Assembly: GCF_000517545.1 (NCBI RefSeq)
Contig: NZ_BAIV01000025.1
Location: 1 to 64,000, forward strand
DNA length: 64,000 nucleotides
From: Bacteroides reticulotermitis JCM 10512
GTDB lineage: Bacteria; Bacteroidota; Bacteroidia; Bacteroidales; Bacteroidaceae
Reading direction: 5' to 3'
Shown here piece by piece: positions 10,414-28,452 of this stretch. Under the pieces are notes generated by a model. That model was given only the letters and a program-made list of their open reading frames with translations, was not told the origin of the DNA and did no database searches. Within the stretch, counting starts at the first letter, position 1; every line of letters begins with the position of its first letter. The position numbers and the translations under genes were made by a program.

Positions 10414-11814
10414 ATGAATCAAGATACAATTTGTGCCATTGCAACAGCCCAGGGCGGTGCTATCGGAACCATTCGTGTTTCCGGTCCGGAAGCTATATCC
10501 ATAACCTCTCGCATCTTCAAACCCGCTCGGGAAAGCAAGTCACTCAGCGAGCAAAAGCCCTACACACTAACGTTCGGCCGTATCTATGACGAAGAAGAAA
10601 TCATCGACGAAGTATTGGTAAGCCTCTTTCGGGCTCCGCACTCCTATACCGGAGAAGACAGCACGGAAATCGCTTGTCACGGCTCATCTTACATCCTTCA
10701 GCAAGTGATGCAACTACTCATCAAGCATGGTTGTCGCATGGCACAACCAGGTGAGTACACCCAACGCGCCTTTTTAAACGGCAAGATGGATCTAAGTCAG
10801 GCAGAAGCCGTTGCCGACCTCATTGCCTCAACTTCTGCCGCTACTCATCGATTAGCAATAAGTCAGATGCGTGGAGGTTTCAGCAAAGAGCTGACCGAGT
10901 TACGCAACAAACTCCTAAACTTTACATCCATGATCGAGCTGGAGCTTGACTTCAGCGAAGAAGATGTCGAGTTTGCCGACCGTTCCGCCTTACGCAAGCT
11001 AGCTGATGAAATAGAGCGAGTTATTTCCCGCCTTGTCCATTCATTTAGTATAGGCAATGCCATTAAGAACGGAGTACCCGTAGCCATCATCGGTGAAACC
11101 AACGCAGGCAAATCCACCCTTCTAAACGTGCTATTAAACGAAGATAAAGCTATTGTCAGCGACATACACGGCACAACGCGTGATGTAATCGAAGATACGA
11201 TCAACCTAGGCGGCATCACCTTCCGTTTCATTGATACGGCAGGCATCAGGGAGACCGACGACACCATCGAGAGCCTCGGTATCGAACGTACCTTCCAGAA
11301 ACTAGATCAGGCAGAGATTGTACTTTGGATGATCGATGCTTCCGAAGCCTCTTCCCAAGTCTCTCAACTTGCCGGTAAGATACTCCCCCGTTGTGTAGGC
11401 AAACACCTGATCGCCGTATTCAATAAGTCCGACCTCATAGAAACGTCCCAATGTCAATCAATTGAACATCTTTTTGCACAAGAGTTTCCTCAGGAGCATA
11501 CCGATCTAATCTTCATCTCAGCCAAGCAAAAGGTACAAACCGACGAGCTAGAGCAAAAGTTGATCAGTGCCGCTCATCTTCCCACAGTGACTCAGAACGA
11601 CATCATCGTTACCAACGTACGTCATTACGAAGCACTCACCAAAGCGCTCGAAGCCATACACCGTGTACAGTCCGGACTCGACTCCCATATATCCGGTGAT
11701 TTCCTTTCACAAGATATTCGCGAATGTATCTTCTTCATCTCCGATATTGCCGGCGAAGTAACGAACGATATGGTGCTTCAAAATATCTTCGAGCATTTTT
11801 GCATCGGGAAATAA
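10414..11814 (+). CDS. mnmE: tRNA uridine-5-carboxymethylaminomethyl modification GTPase MnmE (TrmE)
   Basis: 466 aa. The N-terminal tetrahydrofolate-binding domain (residues 1-120) contains TICAIATAQGGAIGTIRVSG. A helical domain holds the inserted G domain, with P-loop GETNAGKST (near residue 232), DTAG and NKSD. The C-terminus ends in FCIGK, the conserved Cys motif needed for activity. With MnmG it modifies wobble U34 of tRNAs. The ATG at 10414 follows the -7 box; the upstream in-frame ATG at 10390 overlaps the box. The last five codons are also the core of an element attachment site (see 11800-11814), and the gene is kept intact by the insertion. Confidence 0.97.
   Translation: MNQDTICAIATAQGGAIGTIRVSGPEAISITSRIFKPARESKSLSEQKPYTLTFGRIYDEEEIIDEVLVSLFRAPHSYTGEDSTEIACHGSSYILQQVMQLLIKHGCRMAQPGEYTQRAFLNGKMDLSQAEAVADLIASTSAATHRLAISQMRGGFSKELTELRNKLLNFTSMIELELDFSEEDVEFADRSALRKLADEIERVISRLVHSFSIGNAIKNGVPVAIIGETNAGKSTLLNVLLNEDKAIVSDIHGTTRDVIEDTINLGGITFRFIDTAGIRETDDTIESLGIERTFQKLDQAEIVLWMIDASEASSQVSQLAGKILPRCVGKHLIAVFNKSDLIETSQCQSIEHLFAQEFPQEHTDLIFISAKQKVQTDELEQKLISAAHLPTVTQNDIIVTNVRHYEALTKALEAIHRVQSGLDSHISGDFLSQDIRECIFFISDIAGEVTNDMVLQNIFEHFCIGK
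11800..11814 (+). other. attL: 15-bp core at the mnmE 3' end
   Basis: TGCATCGGGAAATAA is the end of mnmE (Cys-Ile-Gly-Lys-stop) and recurs exactly at 26266-26280. Between the copies lies a tyrosine-integrase element, so this is read as the left attachment site. Confidence 0.75.
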
Positions 11815-11855
11815 TGGCTTAGAATTAACAGTAAACAACTGTAATCAATTAGCAA

Positions 11856-11886
11856 GAAGTCTCTCATTTTGAGGGACTTTCTTTGT
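11856..11886 (+). terminator. Rho-independent terminator just inside attL
   Basis: AAGTCTCTC pairs with GAGGGACTT around a short loop and is followed by TCTTTGTTTT. It would end the mnmE transcript and insulate the element. Confidence 0.75.
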
Positions 11887-11999
11887 TTTAACACTTACCC
11901 ATCACTTTTTGTTAGTACCCGTTTTTCATCCTATTTTCGTACCGTATTTCTACCGCGAAACAATTTTGCGGTGAAGCCAAATGTCACAATGACGCATTA

Positions 12000-12036
12000 G
12001 TTGACATGTGTTGACAATGGTCTACGTAGGTTGACA
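12000..12036 (+). promoter_or_regulatory. Three GTTGACA repeats upstream of the HTH gene
   Basis: GTTGACA occurs at 12000, 12010 and 12030, about 30 bases before the start at 12068 and about 200 bases from attL. Such clusters are typical of integrase arm-type or Xis sites, or of an operator for the neighbouring HTH protein. Function is inferred from position. Confidence 0.4.
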
Positions 12037-12067
12037 AAAAGGAGGCGAAATTAAAACGAATAATAGT

Positions 12068-12952
12068 ATGGAAGTGAAGCGAACTTGTAAATGGTGTGGC
12101 AAAGTATTTATTGCCCAAAAGACGACTACCCAATATTGTAGTCTTCAATGCGCACAACGTGGATATAAACAACGTGTCCGCGAGAAAAGAGATGAACTAA
12201 AAAAGAGTCAAGAACTCTTACGTCCTACTGCTTCCCTAGAGGGTCAAGACTACTTAACCTTTTCCAAAGTAGCAAGTTTGATGGGAACCAGTAGGCAATA
12301 CATCTACAAATTGGTAAAGCAAGGCAAACTGCGCGCATCCAGATTGAGTGAAAGGATGTCTTTCATTCGCAGGGCGGACATTGAGCTAATGCTAAAATCT
12401 AAGCCATACGAGCGCATTATGCCTAAAGAAGAGATAAACATTGCTGAATACTACACAGCCGAGGAGATTTCAGAAAAGTATAAAGTCAATGCTAAATGGG
12501 TCTGGACTTTTACCAGACAGAACAAGATACCAAAAATGCGTATTCGGAAGTTAAATTACTACAGCAAGAAGCATATTGATACAGCTTTTGCAAAATACGA
12601 AGTTGATACAGAACTATCTGAATGGTATACTCCGGAAGAGATTGTTGAAAAATATGGTATGGCCCGCATTGCTATTCGAAGCCAAGTTTACCGGAATAAT
12701 ATTCCCTCCAAAAAAGAACATGGGAAGATATTCTATTCTAAATACCATTTCGATTTATCTAAATCGGAAGGTCTACGGAAAGAGGTATATTACTATACCG
12801 TCCAAGAGGCTATGGCAAAATTTCATTTGACAAGAGATGCCGTTTATGGAACTCTACGTTTCCATGGCATTGAGAGAGTAAAAATCGGGAAGTTCGTTAA
12901 GTTTCTCAAAGTTGATTTTGACAAGATCATGGGCGAAGTTCAAAAGAGATAA
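12068..12952 (+). CDS. Helix-turn-helix (excisionase-type) DNA-binding protein with N-terminal zinc-ribbon-like motif
   Basis: 294 aa. The first 40 residues contain CKWCGKVF and YCSLQCAQRGY, four Cys in zinc-finger spacing. Four similar MerR/HTH_17-like modules follow (for example LTFSKVASLMGTSRQYIYKL, YTAEEISEKYKVNAKWVWTF, YTPEEIVEKYGMARIAIR and YTVQEAMAKFHLTRDAVYGT). It lies between attL and the integrase gene, the usual place for a Bacteroides element's excision/integration regulator. Role as Xis or regulator is inferred from position. Confidence 0.75.
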   Translation: MEVKRTCKWCGKVFIAQKTTTQYCSLQCAQRGYKQRVREKRDELKKSQELLRPTASLEGQDYLTFSKVASLMGTSRQYIYKLVKQGKLRASRLSERMSFIRRADIELMLKSKPYERIMPKEEINIAEYYTAEEISEKYKVNAKWVWTFTRQNKIPKMRIRKLNYYSKKHIDTAFAKYEVDTELSEWYTPEEIVEKYGMARIAIRSQVYRNNIPSKKEHGKIFYSKYHFDLSKSEGLRKEVYYYTVQEAMAKFHLTRDAVYGTLRFHGIERVKIGKFVKFLKVDFDKIMGEVQKR

Positions 12953-13062
12953 AGCCTATTTGAAATGATATAGAACTTACTTCCAAATGACTATTTTCAG
13001 CAAAACATCATTCAAAACCTTTGCAATAACTATCAAGTACTAACTATAAAAATCAAGAAATC

Positions 13063-14178
13063 ATGTTCGAATGTAAAACCGTAACACTTAGAACTCGTCC
13101 CATCAAACATGGGCAATTGTCTTTCTATCTGGACTATTATCCAGGCTACAGAGATAAGGAAACAATGAAAGTAATCCGTCATGAATCTTTAGGCATTTAC
13201 ATCTATGAGAAACCGAAGAATCGCAGGGAACGTGAATTTAACGAACAAATGACCGAAAAGGCAGAGGCTATTCGTTGTCGCCGATTCGATGCAATAGTCA
13301 ACGAGCGATATGACTTTCTCGACAAGAGTAAACTTAAAGGTGACTTTTTAGAATACTATCGTCACCAGCTACGTAAGCATGACCAGAAGTGGAAATTTGT
13401 CTATACCCACTTCAGTAATTTTGTGGGTGGTAAATGTATCTTTGAGGAAATAGACATCGACCTTTGCAATAAATTCCGAGAATACCTGCTTACCGCCAAA
13501 AAGCTGAAGAGCAACAAAGATAGGATTTCCCAAAATTCCGCTGCCGGTTATTGGTCCACATTTCGGGGATTTCTACAAGACTTGTATCGTGCCAAACTGA
13601 TACGCAATAACATTAACGACTTCTTGGATAAAATAGAAACAGAAGATATTGACAAGGATTTCCTTACCCAACAAGAATTATGCAAATTGGCTGAAACGCC
13701 ATGCGATATACCCGTTTTAAAAACCGCTTCGCTATTTGCGTGTCTTACCAGTCTGCGTATCAGTGATATTTTGGCTTTACGATGGGAAAATATTCAGGAC
13801 TACTATGATGGTGGCAAGTTTGTGAAGCTTATCACGCAGAAAACGAAATCCATTGATACTATCCCTATCAGCAAGGAAGCATTGGAACTAATCGGTAACA
13901 CTGGTGAAGGGATTATTTTCAAAGGACTTAAACGTAGTATGACACAAGCGCCAATGAAGAAATGGATAAAGTCTGCTGGAATTACCAAAAACATTACGTT
14001 CCATAGCTACCGTAGAACTTTTGCGACTTTACAAGCAGCAGCCGGAACGGATATTATCACCATAGCCAGTATTATGACACACAAAAGTATTTCTACCACG
14101 CAACTTTATACAAAAACCGTTGATGCCAACAAGCGTAAAGCCTCTTCGAAGATTACGCTCAAACGAAAAGAAGAGTAG
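13063..14178 (+). CDS. int: Tyrosine recombinase/integrase
   Basis: 371 aa. A SAM-like N-terminal core-binding domain (about residues 85-185) precedes the catalytic domain. The catalytic set is visible: Arg232 (SLRISDILALRW), His314 and Arg317 (HSYRRTF), His340 (MTHKSI) and the Tyr349 nucleophile (TQLYTKT). Length matches Bacteroides element integrases. It lies 1.2 kb from attL and is the likely enzyme for recombination at the mnmE site. Confidence 0.93.
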   Translation: MFECKTVTLRTRPIKHGQLSFYLDYYPGYRDKETMKVIRHESLGIYIYEKPKNRREREFNEQMTEKAEAIRCRRFDAIVNERYDFLDKSKLKGDFLEYYRHQLRKHDQKWKFVYTHFSNFVGGKCIFEEIDIDLCNKFREYLLTAKKLKSNKDRISQNSAAGYWSTFRGFLQDLYRAKLIRNNINDFLDKIETEDIDKDFLTQQELCKLAETPCDIPVLKTASLFACLTSLRISDILALRWENIQDYYDGGKFVKLITQKTKSIDTIPISKEALELIGNTGEGIIFKGLKRSMTQAPMKKWIKSAGITKNITFHSYRRTFATLQAAAGTDIITIASIMTHKSISTTQLYTKTVDANKRKASSKITLKRKEE

Positions 14179-14347
14179 TGAATATTAAACAGCTTTAATA
14201 GGTGTTTTGAGTATGATTTAAGGTCTGATTTATAGGAAATCTTTTAATTAGTATAAAGATTCTGTTGTTATCGAGAAGTAATAAGCAATAATTGGAAGTA
14301 TGCAGATAATTTTGTCTGACCATTTTACAATCCAGTTACTTACAATT

Positions 14348-15118
14348 ATGAATATTAAGACAATAGAGCTCGTACTACTCTGGCTCATGCCGGGCATTAT
14401 ATTTTTAGCGATCGCTTCTTTAGTAGCTTATCAAATAGGCACTGATTTCAACAATCATTGGATAGTGGAATCAGTTGCCTTTTTTGTTGTGTTCGTACTG
14501 CTACAGACTCTTTATGGACTGTTACAAGCCATATTGTTAGAGATTTTCTTTTCGAAAGCAAACCATTTGTCTATTCCTGTCGACAATATTACATCTAACG
14601 TAACCTTACCTACCAATAGCACTGTCAGTACCTGTCTAGATAAATCAACCTTAATACAAAATGAAAAACGAAAGAAAGCAGAATTGGATAAACAACGAAG
14701 AACCCAGATTCTTGTGGAATATGCCAATGTCGTTTTAAGTTATCACATGAATAAAAATCATTTGGAAACCATTCTGAAAAATGTCGAGCTATTTACCACA
14801 TCACCCGAAGTTGATTTTACTTCTGCTGAGACCGATGGCTCTCTTGGAACTGCCGATCTTCGGCACTTTGCATGGAACATTGGTAAGAGATTGGGCTATG
14901 ACCGGATGACACAAGCCAAATTCATCAAACAATGTTTTCCAAAGGAATTTATGAACTGCGAACTGCCTACTATCATCCGTAACCTGTCGGATGAGGTCAC
15001 ATCCATTATAAAAATAGACAAACCGGACAAAGGAAGCTATGACTTTCATTGGAAAGCAATAGGACTTGTCAATCCGTTGGACATAACATCTAAAAACCTT
15101 TCAAAGGAGGCTGTCTGA
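14348..15118 (+). CDS. Element-encoded membrane-anchored protein of unknown function
   Basis: 256 aa from the ATG at 14348. Two hydrophobic helices (residues 8-28 and 38-65) precede a cytoplasmic part with a charged helix (NEKRKKAELDKQRR) and a folded C-terminal domain (residues 140-250). The ending (HFAWNIGKRLGYDRMTQAKFIKQCFP) resembles accessory proteins found on other Bacteroides elements. An in-frame ATG at 14300 would add 16 residues. I do not recognise a function. Confidence 0.65.
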   Translation: MNIKTIELVLLWLMPGIIFLAIASLVAYQIGTDFNNHWIVESVAFFVVFVLLQTLYGLLQAILLEIFFSKANHLSIPVDNITSNVTLPTNSTVSTCLDKSTLIQNEKRKKAELDKQRRTQILVEYANVVLSYHMNKNHLETILKNVELFTTSPEVDFTSAETDGSLGTADLRHFAWNIGKRLGYDRMTQAKFIKQCFPKEFMNCELPTIIRNLSDEVTSIIKIDKPDKGSYDFHWKAIGLVNPLDITSKNLSKEAV

Positions 15119-15212
15119 ACTTACTTGGAAATGATTCCATACTTATTCTAATCCTCTGAAATCAGCATAAGGTCATTGGATTCCTTTGCAGCGCTTACAA
15201 AAAATAAAATTT

Positions 15213-15587
15213 ATGAAGAACGAATTAACATTCAACGACCTTCCAATGGTTGTAAAGGAACTCTGCAACAAGGTTGAGAGTCTAGAAGAGACGCTACTAA
15301 AACAAGTAACAAGCCGACCTGTTCCTGTGTATGAAAATTACCACACTCCAATGACTTCAGAAGAAGCTCGCGAGTATTTAAAGATGCCGAAATCTACTTT
15401 TTACTTCAAAGTAGGTAATGGTGAAATACCAGCCATCAAGCAAGGTAAACGCTACTACCTCTACAAAGACGAACTGGATCATTGGCTGGAAACCGGAAGA
15501 AAGAATGCTCCTGCACTCTCTGTCGAAGAGATGAATGCCGCAATCTTGGCTTCTCACAAACGGAAACCTAACTCTACAAACTATTGA
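15213..15587 (+). CDS. HTH_17 (excisionase-family) DNA-binding protein
   Basis: 124 aa. A coiled N-terminus (VVKELCNKVESLEETLLKQ) is followed by MTSEEAREYLKMPKSTFYFKV and the wing IPAIKQGKRYYLYKDELDHWL, the standard HTH_17 excisionase fold. Its stop overlaps the start of the ATPase gene (TGATG), so the two are translationally coupled. In Bacteroides mobilizable elements this pair controls excision or replication; that role is inferred. Confidence 0.8.
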   Translation: MKNELTFNDLPMVVKELCNKVESLEETLLKQVTSRPVPVYENYHTPMTSEEAREYLKMPKSTFYFKVGNGEIPAIKQGKRYYLYKDELDHWLETGRKNAPALSVEEMNAAILASHKRKPNSTNY

Positions 15588-16669
15588 TGTGTATGGAATA
15601 CGGAAGAGAGAGGAGCCCGATAAAACGAGAAGAGGCCTGGCAGCTGTGGCAACAGTCCATTCTTAGCATTACGGGTAATTATGAAAAGGCTCCCGAAGTA
15701 TTCAAGATTGACGATACAGTAATCGGCACATTAGGTAATTTCAGTGCATCTATTGGCAAAGCTAAAAGCAAAAAGACATTCAATGTATCAGCAATTGTAG
15801 CTGCCGCCTTAAAAAATGGTAAGGTACTGAATTATTCAGCCTCGTTTCCTTCCGACAAATCGACTATCATCTATATAGATACAGAGCAAAGCCCCTATCA
15901 CTGCCTGAAAGTGATGAAACGAATATTTCAATTGGCAGGGCTCTCTACAGAAGCCAACCATCCCTGTTTTAAGTTTCTAGCATTACGCAAAAACACACCG
16001 GAAGAACGAATAGCCATCATAAATGAAGCAATTTATGGAACAGATAATGTAGGTTTAGTTGTCATAGACGGCATTAGAGATTTAGTTTACGACATAAACG
16101 GTCCAAGCGAATCAACCTACATTATTTCCAAGCTCATGCAATGGACTGATGAAAAACAGATTCATCTTCATACCATCCTCCATCAGAATAAAGGAGATGA
16201 GAATGCACGAGGGCATATTGGCACGGAACTAAGCAACAAGGCGGAAACCATTCTCCAAGTAGAGAAAGACAAGGCGGACTCAAACATCAGTAAAGTCGAA
16301 GCAGTTCACATTCGAGCAATGGATTTCAAACCGTTTGCTTTCCGCATCAACGAGCAGGCGTTACCTGAAATTGTAGAGGACTATGTAGTGGAGGAATCGA
16401 AACCTGGTCGTCCGCCCAAAGAACCATTCGACCCATATAAGGAGATTAAGGTAGAGCAGCATGAGAAGGCTTTAAGGTTTGTATTTGCGAAGAAGGGAGT
16501 TTATGGCTATGAAGAATTACAAGAAGCTTTGGTTGAAGCATACAATGAAGTGGGCTGCCCTATCGGTCGTAATAAAGTCACCAAGGTTATCACATTCCTC
16601 AGGAATAAGCGAATGATTCTACAAGAAAATGGTAAGAAGTATTCACTCAATCCAGACAGGCATTACTAA
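15587..16669 (+). CDS. RepA-like AAA ATPase/helicase of a mobile element
   Basis: 360 aa. It has a variant Walker A (ASIGKAKSKKTF), STIIYIDTEQSPYHC as a RecA-like motif, VGLVVIDGIRDLV as Walker B, and LHTILHQNKGDENARGHIGTEL. These mark the RepA/RecA-like hexameric helicase family used in plasmid and element replication. A winged-helix tail (residues 290-355) ends the protein. The start overlaps the preceding stop codon. In related elements a primase/toprim and mob genes follow; here they are missing. Confidence 0.8.
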   Translation: MCMEYGRERSPIKREEAWQLWQQSILSITGNYEKAPEVFKIDDTVIGTLGNFSASIGKAKSKKTFNVSAIVAAALKNGKVLNYSASFPSDKSTIIYIDTEQSPYHCLKVMKRIFQLAGLSTEANHPCFKFLALRKNTPEERIAIINEAIYGTDNVGLVVIDGIRDLVYDINGPSESTYIISKLMQWTDEKQIHLHTILHQNKGDENARGHIGTELSNKAETILQVEKDKADSNISKVEAVHIRAMDFKPFAFRINEQALPEIVEDYVVEESKPGRPPKEPFDPYKEIKVEQHEKALRFVFAKKGVYGYEELQEALVEAYNEVGCPIGRNKVTKVITFLRNKRMILQENGKKYSLNPDRHY

Positions 16670-16738
16670 TGCTCAATCACTTTACTTTATTCTCAATGCC
16701 TATATATTGAGATTATTTAAAACACTATCTTTAAATAT

Positions 16739-16784
16739 GGATGGAGTTCTCAATTTGGGAACTTCATCCATAGGCTTTTTAAGC
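16739..16784 (+). terminator. Rho-independent terminator after the RepA-like gene
   Basis: GGATGGAGTTCT pairs with the GGGAACTTCATCC arm around a short loop. The T run (CTTTTT) starts a few bases after the stem. Confidence 0.65.
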
Positions 16785-16799
16785 TAACTATATACACAG

Positions 16800-16960
16800 C
16801 TTGCTGCCACTTTAGTGCCTTTTCCCATTGCAAATTTTGCAAATGGGGTATTAGGCTACCCCACTGATAAATCAGTGTGCCATTGGGCAAGCCCAATATG
16901 TTTCACTTGACCGTCTGAAATGTCATTCCCCATTACACTACTTAATATGATAATTGTACC
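16800..16960. other. Hairpin cluster resembling an element oriT region
   Basis: Three inverted repeats stand in a row: CCCATTGCAAA/TTTGCAAATGGG (16824-16847), CACTGAT/ATCAGTG (16862-16877) and TTGGGC/GCCCAA (16883-16896). This layout, with GGGGTATTAGGCTACCCC between the first two, resembles the region upstream of mob genes in Bacteroides mobilizable elements. No mob gene follows. The call as an origin of transfer is an inference. Confidence 0.35.
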
Positions 16961-17014
16961 TTAACGCCATATTTACAAAGGATGTATTAATAAAATTCTA
17001 AAAACAAAAATAAT

Positions 17015-17626
17015 ATGATCTACGGGTACATTAGAGTAAGCAGCGACAAACAAACTGTCGAGAATCAACGCTTTGAGATTAACAACTTCTGCGAACGTGA
17101 AAATATGAATATTGATGGCTGGATAGAAGAAACTATCAGTGGTACTAAATCGTATAATAAACGAGAACTCGGCAAACTGCTTAACAAAGTACAGAAGGAC
17201 GACCTTATCATTTGTGCCGAACTTTCACGCCTTGGGCGTAATCTTTTCATGATTATGGAAATTCTTAATATTTGCATGACCAAAGAGTGCCGTGTGTGGA
17301 CCATAAAAGATAACTATCGATTGGGAGAAGACATTCAAAGTAAAGTTTTAGCTTTTGCTTTTGGCCTATCGGCAGAAATAGAACGTAATCTTATCAGTCA
17401 AAGAACTAAAGAAGCTTTGGCAAGAAAAAAAGCCAATGGTATTGTATTAGGAAGGCCAAAAGGGAAAAGAACTTCACCTGAAAAACATAAACTATTCCCC
17501 AAAAAGACACTCATTATCGGACTGCTTAAAGAAAAAATATCCAAGCGGCAAATTGCTAAAATTTGTAAGGTAAACAGAAACACGCTAGCACGTTATATCG
17601 CAGAAGTAATTGAAGTCGAAAAATGA
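17015..17626 (+). CDS. Mpi-family serine recombinase (DNA invertase)
   Basis: 203 aa. It starts MIYGYIRVSSDKQTVENQR, with the catalytic Ser in RVSS, then ELSRLGRN, AFGLSAEIERNLISQRTKEAL, a GRPKG hinge and an HTH_7 end (ISKRQIAKICKVNRNTLARYI). This is the Hin/Mpi family; Mpi inverts promoters in B. fragilis. Its 3' end overlaps the convergent MTase gene by 34 bases, and the junction looks recombinant. I found no clear pair of inverted crossover sites next to it. Confidence 0.88.
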   Translation: MIYGYIRVSSDKQTVENQRFEINNFCERENMNIDGWIEETISGTKSYNKRELGKLLNKVQKDDLIICAELSRLGRNLFMIMEILNICMTKECRVWTIKDNYRLGEDIQSKVLAFAFGLSAEIERNLISQRTKEALARKKANGIVLGRPKGKRTSPEKHKLFPKKTLIIGLLKEKISKRQIAKICKVNRNTLARYIAEVIEVEK

Positions 17627-20259
17627 GCCGTTTTAGTACGCTCGTCCTCCGATTGACAGTTGGCAAGAATCTCATCACGCTTTTCTGTGGAAATTATGAA
17701 TGCTTCATTATAACCCGTGAGCACTCCGCGATAGATGTTTATATCCCAATCTTTAAGTGGAGTTCCAACCGCTTCAATCTTCTGCTTGATGCTCTGTTCA
17801 ATGGGAGACAATATCACCCACGGGGCAGAGCCTGCAAAATCGCACTCCACGCCTTGTTGCTGCACGAAAACGCTCAAATTCTTTATGCTATTTTTAGCCT
17901 GCTTATTTGTGACTGCGCAAATTGTTTTGTACTCATTTTTTGATTTGCTAAACAATAATATATTGCTATCTACAGTTGCATTCTCGAAAATTTTCACACC
18001 AGAAAAATCTATCAGTAATTTTGGATCTGTCTTTTTAGCAAAGAAAGCTCGAGTTTTTTCTCCATACCCAGCACGCATCCATTTATTAGAAGTAATATAA
18101 CACAAATGACCATTCGGTTTCAGCAATTGCCAACCACGTTCGTAAAAAAGACAATAAATGTCACCAGTACGAGCAAATACCTCGAAGTTGCTGTTTTCAT
18201 AAAGAGCTGCAATCTCGCCTCCATTATTCTGTAACTGTATATATGGCGGATTGCCAATGACAATATCAAAACCATTGCAATCATTCGGTTGATTGAAAAC
18301 ATCACTAAAATAAGTATGCCAAAGGAAGAACTTATCATTAGGTATATTAAGATTATCAACAGCTTCAACAACAGATGGAATATAGCCTGAGCAAATTTTG
18401 ATATGCTCTTTTACAGCATATTCAATATTCTTCCTAATCTTTGCTTTTGCAGAATGATCGCTTTCACTAAAATATTGCTTTAAGTAAAGTTGAATATTTC
18501 TCTTTGTATCAGTTTCGTCAAACATTAGTGATACTTGTCCTCTATTTTTCTTCGCTATGGTTTGCGCACTTTCTGTCAATGTAGAAAGGTCGTACCCCAT
18601 AAAGCTTTCAAGCAAAGAATTCCCCTGCATAATCTTATAATCCAGATTTGGCAATGAGTGTGGGATTTCTTCTTCGACTATCAGCGACAGCCAAAAGCGT
18701 AGACGCGCAATGTCTACCGCACCTCGCTCTATATCTACACCGTATATATTGTGTTGAATGATATGACGTTTTATGTCTGCCGCATCACCAAAACATTCTA
18801 TTGCACCACGACACAAGAACAGCTCTTTGAGCAAGCCCATGGGGAACGCACCTGAACCAATGGCCGGGTCGCATATCTTCACATTTTTCAACCTATTATC
18901 CAGCATCATAGCTAGTTCAGAATCAGCTCCACCAATTTCTGCTACATCGTATGTATTCACAAATTTGTCGATAGCAGTCTTAGTTTGTTCATCCGTTATA
19001 TCTGTTTGCAGATAAGCAGTGAGCGATTGACGACACATATACTGTACAATCTCTTTCGGCGTGTAGAAGGCTCCTTTATCTTTGTTATCCTCCAACAAGT
19101 TCTCAAAGATACGTCCCAGCATCTCTGGGTCTACACCCACTTGTGCGTCATTAGGGTCATTTTCGTCTATAGTAAAATTATACTGATAGAAAAACTCAAA
19201 TAAATCTGCAAAATACTTTGCTGGGAATTGTGATGTAGGCTCATCAAGCAAATCACGTTCGAACAGACCGCCATTGAGATAAGGGATCTTCACCACTGAA
19301 CCATATTCAAAAGAGACACCTGTATCAAACAAGTATTTGTTGTCTTTGCGATCACTGTCAAGCGCATCAGTAAAGAGAGGCTCTAATACTTCGTCAAGAA
19401 AGTTTGCTTTTTGTTCATTACTTGACTTTTCAAACAGATGTTTCATGAAGTTAGTATCTCCCTCACCCCATTGTTTGTTTTTAGGTACTCCCATCCAACC
19501 TTTCTTTTGCAAGAAATGCAAGAACACTATGCGCCCCAGTAGTTTCTTTACATAGTCACGGATAGGCTTTTCCTCACGATCTCTGATTATCTCGTCAGCC
19601 ATTCCGCTTTTGTCGAAAGAAGTATCAATAAAGTCCTGGCGCATTCCGTTTGAATCGTCACACATATAGTCTACAAAACGCTGGTAATGTTGCTTGTATT
19701 TTCCAAAGAATTCCTTAGACAGAGCTTCCACATCAAATGCAGCCTCTATATCTTTCAATTCTATGTCGCCATGCTTTTGCAGAAGTTTTCCAAAATTCTC
19801 TGACGCAGTGCGACATGATTGATTAGGACCAAGCAAGAACGTATAACGTTTAGAATCGGTAGTTTCATCGTTGCTTCCACGTTTACTGCAAAATGTAAAA
19901 CGCCAGTCCCAACTCAGTGTATCCTCATAATGGAATATCATAAATGCACTAGAATAAGTATTCATTATACGTCGTACCAACTGCTGAATAGCTACGCGAT
20001 TACGCACCATCTGCACATGACCAGTAACAGTTATATCATAAATGTCTATAGGGTTAAACTCCACCTGTATAGTACCTACACGGCATACTGACGTTATACC
20101 CGTACTCGCTGCTACAGCTGCCAGTTCTGAATTCTCTTCGAGCAACGAAGCATTGAAGCCGTCATCGAAGTTGTCTTGCCCAAAAATAGGAAACACCACT
20201 TCTTGCAGAAATGATTCGCCACCCTGATATGGCTTCTGAAAATATTCTTTGAATTCCAT
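17593..20259 (-). CDS. Eco57I/TaqI-type adenine-specific DNA methyltransferase, C-terminally truncated
   Basis: 888 aa. A long N-terminal region (1-380) precedes the methylase domain with GAFYTPKEIVQYM (397-409), motif I DPAIGSGAF (464-472), GVDIERGAVDIARLR and catalytic NPPY (670-673), the N6-adenine signature. Relatives continue past RGVLTGYNEAFII and the ERTKTA segment into a TaqI-like specificity domain. Here that is replaced by a ten-residue foreign tail (HFSTSITSAI) read from the 3' end of the invertase gene. Target recognition is therefore probably lost. It lies 18 bases downstream of the PLD-helicase gene and is the last gene of the cargo operon. Confidence 0.88.
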   Translation of the reverse strand: MEFKEYFQKPYQGGESFLQEVVFPIFGQDNFDDGFNASLLEENSELAAVAASTGITSVCRVGTIQVEFNPIDIYDITVTGHVQMVRNRVAIQQLVRRIMNTYSSAFMIFHYEDTLSWDWRFTFCSKRGSNDETTDSKRYTFLLGPNQSCRTASENFGKLLQKHGDIELKDIEAAFDVEALSKEFFGKYKQHYQRFVDYMCDDSNGMRQDFIDTSFDKSGMADEIIRDREEKPIRDYVKKLLGRIVFLHFLQKKGWMGVPKNKQWGEGDTNFMKHLFEKSSNEQKANFLDEVLEPLFTDALDSDRKDNKYLFDTGVSFEYGSVVKIPYLNGGLFERDLLDEPTSQFPAKYFADLFEFFYQYNFTIDENDPNDAQVGVDPEMLGRIFENLLEDNKDKGAFYTPKEIVQYMCRQSLTAYLQTDITDEQTKTAIDKFVNTYDVAEIGGADSELAMMLDNRLKNVKICDPAIGSGAFPMGLLKELFLCRGAIECFGDAADIKRHIIQHNIYGVDIERGAVDIARLRFWLSLIVEEEIPHSLPNLDYKIMQGNSLLESFMGYDLSTLTESAQTIAKKNRGQVSLMFDETDTKRNIQLYLKQYFSESDHSAKAKIRKNIEYAVKEHIKICSGYIPSVVEAVDNLNIPNDKFFLWHTYFSDVFNQPNDCNGFDIVIGNPPYIQLQNNGGEIAALYENSNFEVFARTGDIYCLFYERGWQLLKPNGHLCYITSNKWMRAGYGEKTRAFFAKKTDPKLLIDFSGVKIFENATVDSNILLFSKSKNEYKTICAVTNKQAKNSIKNLSVFVQQQGVECDFAGSAPWVILSPIEQSIKQKIEAVGTPLKDWDINIYRGVLTGYNEAFIISTEKRDEILANCQSEDERTKTAHFSTSITSAI

Positions 20260-20277
20260 AGTTGATATTGTTTTTTG

Positions 20278-23200
20278 TTATTTACTCAGTGCCATATATG
20301 TTATGGCTTTACCATAACGCATCTGTACATTAGCTACTATTTTTTGTATTTCTTGATTCAACACATTGTCAAATTCTTCTTGGCTAAATTCAAAGAGTGT
20401 GCCACCGCTTTGAGTACGAAGATCATCAAGTGCAATTATCTTTTTGATGATGTCATAATTGCCTTTATTCACTAACATGAATGCAGATGATAAAAGGCTA
20501 CGCGACTCCTTAGACATCGTGATAGTGTCTTTCATTTTAATGATTATCTCTTTGGCTTTTGTAGCCTTTTGCGAATTCTTTGCATGAATATTCATCTTAG
20601 CCAGTGCTTGATTTACGGATAATTCGGCTTTTGATTTACGTTGTTCCCAGTCTGCTGGAAGACTGACTGATGGCACATCATCATCGGTACGGAATGCTTT
20701 GTAAGCGTCGATACCGGAAAGAATACTACTTTTAAGTTCAGCATCCACTTTTACAAATAGTCCGGAAGTCTGCTTATTGCGAACAAGGAAATAGCTACTT
20801 CCATCTGTTGGTGCAATTGCTAATTCCAGTCCATCTCCCATTGCCGCTATTTGTTCAAAGCGTTCAGGATGAGTACGTTTATATTCTTTCAGTTCAAATA
20901 CGTATTTTTCCATTGGAGACTCCTCGCCATTTATCTGCTTATTTAAATCATAATGCATTACTTCCTCATTCCCAGTGAATATCTGACTGTCTTCACCAAA
21001 CAAAGTATGGAATGATTGTAGCTTGGTATAAGCCTTTTGTACGAGCCTTATTTGTTCATCACCTTGCAAACTCGGCATAAAATTATAGACATACACATGT
21101 GATGCAATGGAACCAATGCGGTTCACGCGCCCTATACGCTGCATCAGCCGAGTGGAATTCCAAGGAGTATCATAGTTCAGTACACAATTAGCACGATGTA
21201 AATTTACACCTTCTGCCAAAACCTCAGTAGTCACGATTACCTGATAATCATTACTCCATTCACCCTTATAATTGGCATCAAAGTTCTCAGCAATAATCTT
21301 TTCGTTCTCATCTCTGTTTTTTGCAGTTATTACAAGTACCTTCAGAGAGTTATCAGTGGTTTCTATAGCAAGTTTTATAGCCTTCACTGTATCTATCGCC
21401 TCACTAAATATAACCAATTTTTGTGCTATATTGCGTTGTTTATCAAAGAGTGTACTTCGTAACTGCTTTTTGAATTCTTCCAGTTTCGGATCGTTACTGT
21501 AAGCATTCCATCGTTTACAGAGAAATTCTATTAGCTGTAAATCTTTACGCAACAATTCTATATACTCTTGCATAAAATCATCACGAGTAAGTTCACGGTT
21601 ACGTTCCTTCTCATTTTTACCTTTTTTATTAAGTTTCTCTATACGGGAGCGTATATCATTGGCGCATTCGGAAAATGAATACAACTTGCCAGTACGTTCA
21701 TAGTCCTTTTCTCGATCAAGTTCCTCATTTACGTTAATGTCAGGACACACAAAAATGGTATTATGTTCCCACATATCGATCATATTTTGAGTATAGCGAC
21801 GCAAATTCTCAAGTGAAGATTTGAATGCAGAGAAACTGCTTTCTATTCTTTTCACCAAATTAATCTGCATAATTTTAGCCAACTGTTGTGAGAAACGGTC
21901 TGCATCCATATTTTTCCCCTTATACAGAGCCTTCACTTCGGGAGACTTGATGAATTCTATAGCACGATAACGGTAGTAGCATAGATAATTACTGTTATCG
22001 AAGCGAAAATCTTCGGTAGGTGCAATCAGATTCATTGTATCAGCAAAAAGTTTTGCTAATCCACTCTCCATCTGATATTCAATGGAGTGAGGGCCACTAA
22101 TCTTTGGAAAAATGATTCCTTGTTTACCGATGTCATCCTTATAATATTTCTGCACATCAGTACGTGTACGGCGCACCAAAACATCTTGAAGCACACAGTC
22201 ACGTATCTCACCTGATAAACGTTTAAGTTCCGCTCTGCATTCTTCGGGAGTCATATCATCGTTAGGCATATCACCATCATTCATTTGTCCAGATGATTTT
22301 ATCACTTGTACGAATCGACGGTTAATGTCGGAAAAGAAACCTTCAAGGTTTCCACCATTAGCCTTTTTCAAGGTGCTATCGGCGTGGTTTCGCTCAAACA
22401 AATATATCTGGTTTTGTATATCAGATGGACGATTGTTTTGTGGTGTAGCTGAGAGCAATCCTATATATGGATAAGCACCTGTACTAGCTCCTATCTGTGT
22501 TATCAAATCATCCAGTGCTTTATACATTGCAGTACTACTATTGCGAAACTTGTGACTTTCATCTATGATGATTAAACCATAATCTTTATACTCGAAAGCA
22601 GAAGAAAAATCACTGGAATCAATATCGTCAAAATCAACTTCATCCATATAATCAACAAGCTTGCCTATACTTCCTGTTGTAATGTAATCGATAGCCGAAT
22701 CCATTTTATCTGCTTTGTCTGCGTCAAACAGTTTTACAGTTTCTTTCCATCCTGACTGAATGGCAGGAGGAGTTATAATGAGTACCTTACGCTCACGACC
22801 ATCATCATCAGGCATTCCCAGAAAATGTTTTATTATAAGCGTACCTACAATGGTCTTACCTAATCCCACAACATCTGCCAACATAAAACCACCGTGTTCT
22901 TTCATGATGAAGAAACACTGTTTCACCGCTTCTATCTGATAAGCCAACGGATCAAAGCTTTTGGGAAGATAGCTCTCTATCAACTGCTGCTGGTTCATAT
23001 CAACAATGCTACCGAACTTATATTGTAGGAGCTTAATGTACAATTCATAAGGTGTCAACTTTACGACCTCTTTCGCAGCCTCTTCTGCTTTCATTGTTAC
23101 AGGTGAGCCTCTCAATATTTCTTCAAGGAATGTTTTATTCCAAGGCATTGATAAATTCCATTTCTCATCAAACCAACATTTATGTCCCTTTGTATATGAA

Positions 23201-23769
23201 TACTCATTCGGTACGGCTGTGACTCGACTCGTATCAGTTTCCAAATAATTCAATTCCGAATTGCCTTCTAACCCCTTTTGAGTAAAATTACTACTGCCAA
23301 TAATGCCTACAGCATAATTCTGTCCGCAAAAAACATAACATTTTGCATGAAAGAATTGAGCATCACCATCTTCATTCTTTTTGTAAATACGGATTTGAAA
23401 TCTGCTTTCATCCTCCTTTTCCTTACAATATTTTTGAAGCAAGCACACAACCTCTACATATTTGTCAATCACTTCAAGTTGTTGTATATCCCTCTTGATA
23501 TAATCTTGTGGAAATTTCGCATCTTTACAAATAGGATTAGCCAATTGATTTTGACGCACAATTGGATCAGCCCCTATCAATAGCTGAAAAGTTGCCCCCT
23601 CTTTTTCTAGAAAATCTTTCAACTCACTATAAATCAAAAAAGTGCCAGGAATATCCCAATATCCTGTTGCTATTTTTATAGCCTTACAATTGGCATTGGT
23701 TATACACTCTTTGATAGTGTTGACTAACCTCAAGCATTCATCTGAATTATCAATAAGAGTATTTGTCAT
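20278..23769 (-). CDS. SNF2-type helicase with N-terminal phospholipase-D nuclease domain
   Basis: 1163 aa. Residues 1-190 form a PLD-like nuclease domain with FFHAKCYVF (His141, Lys143) and GSSNFTQKGL (158 on), an HxK...SSN active site. The SNF2 helicase core shows Walker A VVGLGKT (301-307), DESH (403-406), LLSATPQNN, and motifs V/VI (VLAEGVNL; MQRIGRVNRIGS). Residues 640-760 hold a charged coiled insert. PLD and SNF2 modules with an Eco57I methylase occur in DISARM-like and other restriction systems, so a role in DNA restriction is likely. It appears intact, unlike its methylase partner. Confidence 0.9.
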   Translation of the reverse strand: MTNTLIDNSDECLRLVNTIKECITNANCKAIKIATGYWDIPGTFLIYSELKDFLEKEGATFQLLIGADPIVRQNQLANPICKDAKFPQDYIKRDIQQLEVIDKYVEVVCLLQKYCKEKEDESRFQIRIYKKNEDGDAQFFHAKCYVFCGQNYAVGIIGSSNFTQKGLEGNSELNYLETDTSRVTAVPNEYSYTKGHKCWFDEKWNLSMPWNKTFLEEILRGSPVTMKAEEAAKEVVKLTPYELYIKLLQYKFGSIVDMNQQQLIESYLPKSFDPLAYQIEAVKQCFFIMKEHGGFMLADVVGLGKTIVGTLIIKHFLGMPDDDGRERKVLIITPPAIQSGWKETVKLFDADKADKMDSAIDYITTGSIGKLVDYMDEVDFDDIDSSDFSSAFEYKDYGLIIIDESHKFRNSSTAMYKALDDLITQIGASTGAYPYIGLLSATPQNNRPSDIQNQIYLFERNHADSTLKKANGGNLEGFFSDINRRFVQVIKSSGQMNDGDMPNDDMTPEECRAELKRLSGEIRDCVLQDVLVRRTRTDVQKYYKDDIGKQGIIFPKISGPHSIEYQMESGLAKLFADTMNLIAPTEDFRFDNSNYLCYYRYRAIEFIKSPEVKALYKGKNMDADRFSQQLAKIMQINLVKRIESSFSAFKSSLENLRRYTQNMIDMWEHNTIFVCPDINVNEELDREKDYERTGKLYSFSECANDIRSRIEKLNKKGKNEKERNRELTRDDFMQEYIELLRKDLQLIEFLCKRWNAYSNDPKLEEFKKQLRSTLFDKQRNIAQKLVIFSEAIDTVKAIKLAIETTDNSLKVLVITAKNRDENEKIIAENFDANYKGEWSNDYQVIVTTEVLAEGVNLHRANCVLNYDTPWNSTRLMQRIGRVNRIGSIASHVYVYNFMPSLQGDEQIRLVQKAYTKLQSFHTLFGEDSQIFTGNEEVMHYDLNKQINGEESPMEKYVFELKEYKRTHPERFEQIAAMGDGLELAIAPTDGSSYFLVRNKQTSGLFVKVDAELKSSILSGIDAYKAFRTDDDVPSVSLPADWEQRKSKAELSVNQALAKMNIHAKNSQKATKAKEIIIKMKDTITMSKESRSLLSSAFMLVNKGNYDIIKKIIALDDLRTQSGGTLFEFSQEEFDNVLNQEIQKIVANVQMRYGKAITYMALSK

Positions 23770-23802
23770 AACATTTTCGCTTCGTTAGGTTTTACATATT
23801 CA

Positions 23803-24806
23803 CTAAGAATGAAACATTCTTTCAAGTTCCTTCATTTGTGCTATGAGAGATTCAAACGTAGGAGCTTCTCCATAAATCATCGTAAGACGCATATCGTTAT
23901 AGTCTTGTTCCCAAATATCCACCAAAGATTTGTTTGGAATAAGACAGATACGTCTACGGATGTCAGGGGTATAATCAACACCATTCACATGAGTAAAGCA
24001 TTCACGATGATGGTGAATGGTCGCCCATAATTCATCATTAGAAACAGCATTTAATGCTATTTCAGTTTTCATCATCATTGCCAAGTCATAAAGATGACGC
24101 GACTTTCTATTGGCATCACTCATGGAGGTTGCGAGAATAACTCATGTAACAAGAAAGCCTTTTCCAAAAATGTCTTTTCAGCAAGAGCTGTCGGTATTGC
24201 TACCGACTGAATGATTGTTTCAATCGGAAGATATTGCTCTACAATACTCTTTACTTCTACTTTAGAGGTCGGTTCTAATAAAGAACGGGAGCCAATTTCC
24301 AACTTGACTTCTGAATGTAAGTATGGTAGTTCGGTTTCGAATAAAGAATAGTAACGAATATGTATGACACGTGGTTCTGGGTGGGTATTGTCACCCTCCC
24401 CGTCAGGATCAACTTCTATCGATAACCATTTATCCAAACCTTTTTCCATGATTGCTGATTTCAAAGATTGGCACAATTCATCACGAACAAATATGGATGA
24501 ACACTTCCTGAGACGTTTGATTTGCTTCTTTGTCAAATCACCTTTAAATCCCCAGATAGACGGATCTATAGCCAAATCTATATCTTCGGAAAAGCGTTGA
24601 ATAACGTTCCACACTTTACTCAAGGAAGTACCGCCTTTAAACACCAAATGTTCTGCCATGGGCAAAGAGAATATAATTTGAAGCATCGCTGTTACCCACA
24701 GGTCTTTTTCGATGGCTTGCACTGGAAGCCCAGTTCTATTGGCAGCTTGCGTAATGACCATTATTTGTTGGTCAGTGGTAAGCGAAAAGTAGTTATTCAT
24801 AGGCAT
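23803..24806 (-). pseudogene. AbiEii/AbiGii-type nucleotidyltransferase, split by an apparent 1-base deletion
   Basis: The first part (24120-24806, 228 aa) has the AbiEii domain with FKGGTSLSKVW and RFSEDIDLAI, which hold the nucleotidyltransferase GG...S and DxD-like residues. It stops at LLHELFSQPP. The second part (23803-24123) begins MSDANRKSRHLYDLAMMM, a segment that normally continues the same protein. Adding one A at 24121-24123 (CCATGAG to CCAATGAG) joins them as ...SQPPMSDANRKSRHLYDL, about 334 aa. Alternatively it is two genes coupled by an ATGA overlap; I favour one gene. AbiEii is the toxin of type IV toxin-antitoxin/abortive infection pairs. Confidence 0.7.
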
Positions 24807-25398
24807 TTTTTATGATAGTTCTTATCCAAGCAGGCATCAATGATGCATCCGCCATCACTTTTTCTTTTGATTCTTTCGCTAATATCTGTTTAAGTTGGGT
24901 TATCTGCGGCTCTGTTATCTTACCTTGCCCCAGTTCTTTTAAGGCAAAGGTAACAAGCATCGCCAATTTATTCGTAAAAGCTAAATTCTTGGGCGATGTA
25001 AATCGGAATTGAATGGATTTGCCATTTCCAATATTTATCTTCCGCCTTGTTCCATCAGTCAGATAAACAAAATTCATGGGTATTTGAGTGGAAAGCCCCA
25101 ACTTATTGAGCGCATGAATTCCCGTAGGTACTATTCTCGCCTTATCACGCCGAGCAATACTATCGGCTATTTCTTCGATGGAAGGATAAAGTACCCCCAA
25201 TCCCATTATTTTATCTTGCTTAGGATAATAATAGATACCTCTTGCCAAACGAAGAATCAGGCCTTTTTCAGTCAATCGTTCTAAGGCTTTGCCTATGCTC
25301 TTGGGTTCGCCAAAGTCAATAAAATCATTTGGGAAAAAGATATATCCTTCTCCTTCGATTCCTATCACTTCCATAATTTTATCCTCGATACTTACCAT
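24793..25398 (-). CDS. AbiEi-like regulator/antitoxin (DUF6088 family)
   Basis: 201 aa. An N-terminal winged helix (residues 5-60, with SIGKALERLTEKGLILRLARGIYYYP) is followed by an AbiEi-like middle region (ARIVPTGIHALNKLGLSTQIP) and a C-terminal helical part. Such proteins repress their own operon and counter the adjacent nucleotidyltransferase. The gene overlaps the next one by 14 bases and heads the cargo operon. A palindromic sequence upstream (25411-25437) is a likely operator. Confidence 0.85.
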   Translation of the reverse strand: MVSIEDKIMEVIGIEGEGYIFFPNDFIDFGEPKSIGKALERLTEKGLILRLARGIYYYPKQDKIMGLGVLYPSIEEIADSIARRDKARIVPTGIHALNKLGLSTQIPMNFVYLTDGTRRKINIGNGKSIQFRFTSPKNLAFTNKLAMLVTFALKELGQGKITEPQITQLKQILAKESKEKVMADASLMPAWIRTIIKNAYE

Positions 25399-25410
25399 AC
25401 TACTCGTTTT

Positions 25411-25437
25411 GTCGCAAAAATATGTTATTTTTACGAC
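25411..25437 (-). promoter_or_regulatory. Promoter/operator of the AbiEi-headed operon
   Basis: GTCG and CGAC bound an imperfect AT-rich palindrome. On the minus strand it contains TATTTTTG, a -7 box, 13 bases before the start codon at 25398. Overlap of palindrome and promoter suggests repression by the AbiEi-like protein. A second copy lies at 25930-25957. Confidence 0.55.
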
Positions 25438-25532
25438 TTACAATTATTTCTTGAAGTATTTTTGCTACTAATCTAAATTATTAGTCATTCTACTCTATAT
25501 TGTGACCTCAGATTCCCCATTCTAATAAAATC

Positions 25533-27051: not shown

Positions 27052-28404
27052 GGGACTATCCCATATTTTGTGTAAACGTTAAAACTTACAGGTAATCGGA
27101 TTAGGGTTTATACCTTAATTCGATTTTCAAATATAGTCAAAAACTGGTTAAATATCATTCCCCAGTTCCAAATTGGTTTATACCATTTCTTCTCAATCTC
27201 TGCTATAGCTAGGTAGACTGACTTCTTCAACGCATCATCATTAGGGAAAGAAAGTTTGTTTTTGGTGTATTTTCTAATTTTACCATTCAGATTTTCAATC
27301 AAATTGGTGGTATAAATTATCTTCCTGATTTCTACAGGAAAATCATAAAAGGAGGTTAATTCGTCCCAATTGTTTCTCCATGACCGGATAGCATAAGGAT
27401 ATTTAGCTCCCCATTTTTTCTCGAAGAGGTCAAGTTCTGCACCAGCAGCTTCTTTAGTGGGAGCATTGTAGATATTCTTCAGATCTGCAGAGAACTCCTT
27501 TTTTTCCTTCCATACCACATAGCGACAAGAGTTCCTGATTTGATGAACTACACAAATTTGTGTAGTAGACTCAGGGAAGACGCTTTTTATAGTATCCGTA
27601 AATCCGTTCAGATTATCGGTTACAGTTATGAGAATATCTTCTACTCCACGAGCTCTTAAATCTGTTAGAACACCCATCCAGAAGGAAGCACTTTCGGCTT
27701 TACCAACCCACATACCCAGAACTTCTTTCAAACCGTCCTTATTTAAACCCACACATAGGTAAACTGTTTTATTAATCACTTTACCATTCTCACGGACTTT
27801 GAAAACAATCCCGTCCATCCAGACAATCATATAAAGACTCTCTAAAGGACGATTTTGCCATTCTAAAGCAGCCTGAGAAACCTTGCTCGTAATCACAGAG
27901 ATGGCAGAAGTAGAGAGGCTAATCTTATAAATCTCAGCCATCTCAGACTCAATGTCAGACACACTCATACCCTTGGCGTATAAGGAGATAACCAGTCGCT
28001 CAATTGACATGCCACGACTTTGGTGTTTAGGTATAATCACAGGGGCAAAGCTACCTTCACGATCACGGGGAATATCAATCACAGACTCACCGTGTTCCCT
28101 CTGGATCTTCTTGGGATATTTACCGTTACGGGAATTACCACTATTATTACCAGAAGCAGCATGCTTCTCATAGCCCAGGTGAACATCAAGCTCACCTTCA
28201 AGCATTTGTTCGTACAAACGGGAATGAAGGTCACGAAGGAAACCATCAACATCGTCAGCGTTCTTGAACTGACTAACGAATTCTTTACTTAAAAATTCTT
28301 TGGGAATGTCCATAATAAAACTTTTATCAAAGTTATACATAAATAAAAAACTGCAAATCATATAACCTGCAGTTTTACATTTACACAATATTATGGACAG
28401 TGCC
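27052..28404 (-). mobile_element. IS256-family insertion sequence
   Basis: About 1.35 kb. Imperfect terminal inverted repeats are visible: left GGGACTATCCCATATTTTGT and right (inverted) GGCACTGTCCATAATATTGT, both followed by GTAAA. One transposase gene fills the element. I see no clear 8-9-bp target duplication, so either the ends are off by a few bases or the flanks have rearranged. Confidence 0.85.
27108..28313 (-). CDS. IS256 family (Mutator-type) transposase
   Basis: 401 aa from the ATG at 28313 (MDIPKEFLSKEFVSQF). The catalytic DDE region is intact: WMDGIVFKVRENGKV (first Asp), LITVTDNLNGFTDTI (second Asp), and the later TTNLIENLNGKIRKYTKNK with the third acidic residue. VFPESTTQICVVHQIRN is the family's signature. 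An in-frame ATG 93 bases upstream lies outside the conserved start and close to the terminal repeat. It appears functional. Confidence 0.93.
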   Translation of the reverse strand: MDIPKEFLSKEFVSQFKNADDVDGFLRDLHSRLYEQMLEGELDVHLGYEKHAASGNNSGNSRNGKYPKKIQREHGESVIDIPRDREGSFAPVIIPKHQSRGMSIERLVISLYAKGMSVSDIESEMAEIYKISLSTSAISVITSKVSQAALEWQNRPLESLYMIVWMDGIVFKVRENGKVINKTVYLCVGLNKDGLKEVLGMWVGKAESASFWMGVLTDLRARGVEDILITVTDNLNGFTDTIKSVFPESTTQICVVHQIRNSCRYVVWKEKKEFSADLKNIYNAPTKEAAGAELDLFEKKWGAKYPYAIRSWRNNWDELTSFYDFPVEIRKIIYTTNLIENLNGKIRKYTKNKLSFPNDDALKKSVYLAIAEIEKKWYKPIWNWGMIFNQFLTIFENRIKV

Positions 28405-28452
28405 AAAAGTTAGTTCGAAAATTTTCCGGCTCTAACCTTTTTGTGATTTATG

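Follow-up and report, generated by a model that had tools for sequence, protein, structure and literature searches.

In the Type I hsdS shufflon of Bacteroides fragilis NCTC 9343, inversion occurs between inverted repeats in the specificity genes and involves a tyrosine integrase (PMC3090145). The bacteriophage exclusion (BREX) locus of Lactobacillus rhamnosus carries a full and a partial copy of PglX beside a site-specific integrase (PMC7513527), Mpi of B. fragilis flips at least thirteen regions scattered over the genome, seven polysaccharide loci included (PMC5903667), and invertons have been found to overlap restriction S-subunit genes in gut bacteria (PMC11892184). Here, we analyse a stretch of 64,000 nucleotides (the window) from Bacteroides reticulotermitis JCM 10512 (contig NZ_BAIV01000025.1, positions 1 to 64,000 of the forward strand), in which the gene of an Eco57I-type N6-adenine methylase runs into that of an Mpi-family serine DNA invertase. 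With a probability of about 0.75, we take this locus to be the dead-end form of an invertible methylase-specificity switch in which a deletion has joined the methylase and invertase genes. Among the literature matches listed, mostly non-subscription papers, no serine invertase swapping the TaqI_C cassettes of a single-chain methylase was found, which is no proof of novelty.

Translation of the methylase gene reveals native sequence at residues 1–878, up to ERTKTA, whereas residues 879–888 (HFSTSITSAI) are read antisense from the end of the invertase gene. A preliminary description, made from the letters of the window, had placed the break at this point, and comparison with the 1098-residue homologue of Bacteroides sp. 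214 (locus L002) now fixes it. The methylase and invertase genes overlap tail to tail by 34 bp (17593–17626), and the + strand across the junction reads GAAAAATGAGC/CGTTTTAGTACG, GAAAAATGAGC being the kept left half of the invertase-side recombination site. Relative to L002, the window is shorter by 1980 bp, which include both TaqI_C specificity domains. The window methylase matches Eco57I (E 8.5e-42) and N6_Mtase in Pfam and the REase_MTase_IIG model of PADLOC (E 1.1e-127); a general Pfam scan found neither TaqI_C—and thus not the C-terminal specificity domain of a Type IIG-like methylase—nor any nuclease family in it. In L002, TaqI_C occupies residues 883–1022 of the methylase and is present again in the silent cassette, which bears out the suspected loss of a TaqI-like specificity domain. 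Since this domain is gone, the truncated methylase is, judging from its domain architecture, most likely unable to choose a DNA target.

The missing domains are not elsewhere in the assembly, which is 98.4% complete. A profile of 44 C-terminal sequences, applied to the window's own genome at E values up to 1, returned only the stub remaining at the junction (profile positions 1–83 of 292), and either C-terminus of L002 matched that stub alone; the proposal that the missing half had been moved by recombination is thus abandoned. Nor was an informative repeat detected at the junction among the longest families listed in a repeat search of window positions 11800–32000. An allele common to other genomes was also considered and rejected, as the junction string occurs in 1 of the 158 genomes searched in the genus, namely the window's own, and is absent from the IMG/VR contigs.

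The intact counterpart is exemplified by L002, where the same element comprises the 1098-residue methylase (91% identical to that of the window in the best segment), an inverted second C-terminus of 294 residues, and the same invertase, whose stop overlaps the start of the silent cassette. A contig scan found 387 relatives, of which 80 loci were retained; 23 loci from IMG/VR were added, as were further loci from fetched genomes. Three parts—a methylase, an inverted cassette that begins with the same segment, and a serine invertase—occur together in 26 loci, each on a different contig; these comprise 16 of the 80 contig-scan loci (including L069, whose invertase was matched in part only), 3 of the 23 IMG/VR loci, and 7 from fetched genomes (L121, L122, L123, L165, L168, L170, and L172). 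The titles of these records include Bacteroides, Hallella, Segatella, Treponema, Rufibacter, Mucilaginibacter, a Gastranaerophilales bin, and a Methanomicrobiaceae bin. While L002 and the 25 others have the expressed C-terminus, inverted second C-terminus, and adjoining invertase to be expected of an invertible specificity-cassette locus, the window has neither a second cassette nor a specificity domain. That a deletion joined two genes, one of the options raised by the preliminary description, is borne out by these relatives, which keep both genes in one locus. An AlphaFold model of the L002 silent cassette (mean predicted local distance difference test score 79.3) shows moderate likeness to M.BseCI, CamA, MmeI, BpuSI, and PglX, with template modelling scores by query of 0.42–0.61. 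As far as gene arrangement can tell, an intact locus has the appearance of an invertible specificity switch served by a serine invertase of the Mpi family; an exchange between the methylase's site 1 and the copy of site 1 that precedes the silent cassette would replace one specificity domain with the other.

Several further observations concern the distribution and state of such loci. One contig of Bacteroides sp. GM023 (L001) stops inside the repeat at residue 800, as expected where a repeat interrupts assembly, and two contig pairs (L173/L174 in genome G312 and L175/L176 in G447) stop in the same repeat, one member carrying the methylase and the other the invertase, as expected if both orientations coexist. 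Two invertase-like genes stand in tandem on an IMG/VR contig (L106). When IMG/VR was scanned with the cassette and with the methylase, two and three loci, respectively, were returned, mostly on contigs already found, and a plasmid search returned 284 records, every one below 60% identity. The stub DNA of the window (17640–17875) is almost identical, over most of its length, to positions 12350–12590 of L040, another locus of Bacteroides sp. GM023, although the methylase core of L040 is only 48% identical to that of the window; for this reason, cassettes seem to move between loci.

To define site 1, 26 expressed and 26 silent cassette starts were aligned; the Treponema loci L013 and L016, whose sites misfit the motif alignment, were omitted from the site table. 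The consensus approximates GAGCGWTTTYGTGCAGCA, and its AGC is invariant in 52 of 52 copies. Right halves are alike in the expressed and silent sets, whereas left halves differ. The best palindromic centre of the 26 expressed sites is AG (5.5 of 12 positions, against at most 4.15 at the 15 other centres). The invertase-side breakpoint of the window falls within the invariant AGC, and the window retains one complete site 1 plus only the left half of the invertase-side site. Two origins of such a junction have to be weighed. In the first, the invertase-side site 1 would have been joined, at its AGC core, to methylase sequence in direct orientation; because the partner lies in direct orientation, a deletion instead of an inversion would have followed, with a loss of about 2.0 kb and, if the ancestor was L002-like, of both specificity domains. 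We lean towards this off-target action of the invertase over random loss, on the strength of sequence comparison. In the second, which we consider unlikely, an ordinary illegitimate deletion would have joined two breaks through the 3-bp AGC homology in the absence of invertase action, the site being coincidental or a fragile spot.

Rearrangements in related loci speak to this choice. The loci L118 and L124 of two genomes are 99.4–99.9% identical apart from one inversion of about 1.3 kb, whose reciprocal junctions combine a true site (AATTTGAGC/GATTTCG) with a non-site (ACAATTCCAGC/CATAATAACC), AGC being shared. The unrearranged non-site is also found in L102, and L164 keeps the unrearranged order. 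In the silent cassette of L163, site 1 is joined to site 2—a second site-like sequence within the cassette, treated below—with both broken in their cores. In L102, the site 2 core marks one end of an inversion that covers the head of the expressed specificity domain. A reciprocal exchange at the AGC core in L118, breaks at site cores in L163 and L102, and the position of one window breakpoint exactly within a 3-bp core that never varies all argue against an illegitimate deletion and for the invertase. In this family, an invertase could possibly act in trans, since genome G155 holds L164, a copy with no invertase nearby, together with the intact locus L165.

A number of results nevertheless weigh against off-target action of the invertase and are the reason for our restraint, the similarity of the methylase-side partner to a site being low in absolute terms and modest in rank. 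Against a matrix of 40 sites from 20 loci, which themselves score 16.8–31.3, the partner scores −2.7, the shared GAGC counted. Judged by its right half, the partner stands in roughly the top 5% of the windows that contain AGC (48 of 1005 and 36 of 820); once completed with a left half taken from L002, it agrees with the best of three consensus 26-mers in 15 positions, a level that 2.0% of AGC windows attain. For the L118 partner, the agreement extends to just 13 positions (7.8% of AGC windows), and no close invertase is now present in genome G030, the carrier of the L118 inversion (30% identity at best). The break in L162 lies away from the cores, which shows that off-site breaks occur, and of the breaks in L120 and L070 one end alone lies at the site 2 core or within a base of it. 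The mere 3 bp common to both ends of the window deletion would fit plain microhomology, as would the weak match of the partner and the presence of another lesion in the operon.

That invertible repeats were mis-joined during assembly and the true locus is intact appears very improbable. The contig ends in L001, L173/L174, and L175/L176 indicate that such loci do disturb assemblies; however, the join in the window shares 3 bp only, while assemblers generally require long overlaps, and the cassette profile found no other piece in the nearly complete assembly. A natural short form, in which the methylase works without TaqI_C or with a separate specificity protein, is suggested by the intact catalytic domain and can nonetheless be dismissed almost entirely, given that the L002 homologue continues to 1098 residues, that the genome has no other cassette, and that the tail is the antisense of another gene. 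No relative was found to end at the same residue: the expressed open reading frames (ORFs) of L070 and L102, which stop nearby (87 and 95 residues past site 1), do so through other damage elsewhere.

The relatives also suggest a wider reading, which we regard as evenly balanced: intact loci may be two-site, four-state methylase switches, in which one Mpi-family invertase would act on two mutually incompatible site pairs within coding sequence. Site 2 (approximately GACCGATTYTGCGNGGCA) resembles site 1 and encodes the motif RPILRGR at the beginning of TaqI_C. Of the 20 loci in which both copies were measured, 16 have it 260 bp past site 1. Site 1 (core AG) and site 2 (core AC) would independently shuffle the segment between them and the TaqI_C domain, and from two cassettes methylases of four specificities would arise; this would hold for Bacteroidota and Treponema as well as for a Gastranaerophilales bin and an archaeal bin. 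Alternatively, segment and specificity domain may have been reassorted by homologous recombination in a conserved block, site 2 being merely a protein-constrained motif, an explanation whose chances we place a little short of even. In favour of a recombinase site, the site 1 matrix picks out site 2 as its best hit in 32 of 46 cassettes, the proline of the motif is encoded by CCG in 39 of 45 cases as opposed to 2 of 23 methylases without an invertase in the locus, and aberrant junctions occur at its core. The codon comparison is partly confounded because the control methylases mostly differ in other residues at RPILRGR, which favours homologous recombination, as does the conserved motif that site 2 encodes. 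Where site 1 reads AG, site 2 reads AC in 45 of 45 cases; as far as is known, serine recombinases require matching central dinucleotides. Palindromy at site 2 amounts to 3.84 at the expected centre and to as much as 3.98 elsewhere, and the want of a single palindromic centre again fits the homologous route.

Identity over 18 bp between the expressed and silent copies was compared in the 16 loci with the commonest segment length; excluded were L020, L023, L039, L060, and L080, which differ in segment length or lack the site 2 motif, together with L070, L095, and L102, whose expressed copy is broken or short. Site 1 shows such identity in 11 of 16 loci and site 2 in 9 of 16, as against 2–5 of 16 at offsets 12–234, which speaks for exchange at site 2. 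Identical 18-mers at offsets 246–252 (site 2) are, however, also raised between loci (14–20%), as homologous recombination or protein constraint would predict. A third site-like sequence, GAGGATTTTTCTAAGCCA (encoding EDFSKP), occurs at cassette positions of about 486–537 in L122, L123, L165, and L168, and some of these cassettes have it as the highest-scoring hit of the site 1 matrix; the inversion in L102 seems to end at the same protein position.

The segment between the sites, of about 85 residues, is dimorphic (NIYRGVLTG, type R, or QINYGIKTG, type K; 28 cassettes each). Opposite types are found in the two copies of a locus in 18 of the 22 loci in which both types are readable (binomial p 0.002, loci treated as independent), the exceptions being L017, L058, L060, and L121. 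When cassettes of different loci were paired at 80% or more identity in the specificity-domain head, with L118, L164, and L046 dropped as duplicates, 69 pairs were of the same and 76 of opposite segment type, and at 90% the numbers are 10 and 7; because these are near equal, segment and specificity domain appear close to unlinked. Two large head classes exist, A (15) and B (18), and all four segment–head combinations are found expressed, in different loci: R-A (L053, L123), K-B (L002, L017), K-A (L065, L096), and R-B (L040, L170). Related methylase bodies can carry opposite expressed types (L053/L064, 93% identical; L013/L016, 87%). Independent use of the two site pairs would give this free assortment. 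If intact loci are four-state switches, the window would show the cost of the arrangement: an off-target event would have removed both domains and left the system locked in the off state.

The remaining features of the element are collected in Table 1. The invertase scores 339.7 bits with NF009949 (curated cut-off 272), as befits a member of the Mpi family, and is 99.5% identical to that of L002. A foreign origin of its last residues, which the preliminary description had entertained, is rejected, as L002 has the identical IEVEK end. It seems to have nothing left to flip at the locus, because a single site 1 is left there with no complete partner. The helicase is 93–94% identical in L001 and L002; among the 26 three-part loci, a related SNF2 helicase is found in 20 (not in L065, L102, L122, L123, L165, and L172) and the PLD part in 7. 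The frameshift in the AbiEii-like gene constitutes a second lesion in the same operon. Since the specificity domain is gone and this gene is frameshifted, it is plausible, to go by the gene sequences, that the operon is silent or altered, and an inactive remnant is the likeliest state; a harmful unguided helicase–nuclease is possible but would be selected against. The pieces in common with the L002 element (11806–14564, 14623–17637, and 17857–25443; 86–93% identity) encode a helix–turn–helix protein, a tyrosine integrase (13063–14178), and accessory genes, besides the invertase, methylase, helicase, and AbiE-like genes. Further along the window, a protein encoded at 28453–29241 (−) matches the TIR effector model of PADLOC (E 1.6e-10); its gene adjoins an ORF (27108–28406) that we take to resemble a transposase.

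Table 1. Positions of the element and its parts in the window, with the basis of each assignment.
Feature	Position	Strand	Basis
Stretch common with the L002 element	11806..25443		blastn of window 9001–34000 against L002
Mpi-family serine DNA invertase, 203 residues, open frame, own end IEVEK	17015..17626	+	Resolvase domain, NF009949, comparison with L002
Truncated Eco57I/N6-adenine methylase, 888 residues	17593..20259	−	ORF and translation, Pfam, comparison with L002 homologue (1098 residues)
Deletion junction AGC, fitting both the invertase-side recombination site and the methylase (antisense)	17626..17628	+	Sequence, comparison with L002
Remaining stub of expressed cassette (segment a, type NIYRGVLTG)	17626..17875	−	Comparison with L040, cassette profile
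Intact recombination site 1, expressed side, GAGCGTTTTCGTGCAGCA, without complete partner at the locus	17858..17875	−	Site comparison across loci
PLD and SNF2 helicase of the same operon, 1163 residues, open frame	20278..23769	−	ORF, domain matches
AbiEii-like gene, broken into two frames because one base is missing compared with L002	23803..24806	−	Comparison with L002
AbiEi-like gene (DUF6088)	24793..25398	−	Domain matches

An odd gene fusion may thus be understood as a readable recombination scar, in which the crossover of an invertase would be narrowed to a few bases, and the window locus offers a concrete and testable case of how programmed inversion loci die. Should the two-site reading be true, the single-chain adenine methylases of a widespread defence-type locus of the gut would shuffle their specificity combinatorially, like Type I HsdS, with consequences for phage resistance, the uptake of DNA, and the heterogeneity of methylomes in gut bacteria.

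Compared with described systems, the locus combines familiar parts in a distinct arrangement. It resembles the DrmD protein of the defence island system associated with restriction–modification (DISARM) and PLD-helicase defence proteins in having SNF2 helicase and PLD domains, but its scores lie far under the cut-offs (127 bits against 610 for the DISARM DrmD model; 101.9 against 1100). With Type IIG and other TaqI_C methylases such as M.BseCI, CamA, MmeI, and BpuSI, the intact relatives share a catalytic domain followed by a TaqI_C-like region, whereas the window copy is devoid of TaqI_C; we know of no inverted spare cassette for any of these four enzymes. The invertase belongs to the same family as Mpi (NF009949) and, unlike Mpi, adjoins a methylase and has its sites within coding sequence. 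As in the BREX locus of L. rhamnosus with its PglX (PMC7513527), a defence locus of this type holds a recombinase and, beside a single-chain adenine methylase, a further copy that is incomplete; in contrast to PglX, the window methylase reaches at best 81.6 bits with the PglX model (cut-off 500), and its neighbours are a PLD–SNF2 helicase and AbiE-like genes. A further parallel is provided by the Type I hsdS shufflons, in which inversion inside the specificity genes alters target recognition and the recombinase gene adjoins. There, a separate HsdS subunit (PMC3090145) is rearranged by a tyrosine integrase, whereas here the C-terminus of a single-chain Eco57I-type methylase would be exchanged by an Mpi-family serine invertase.

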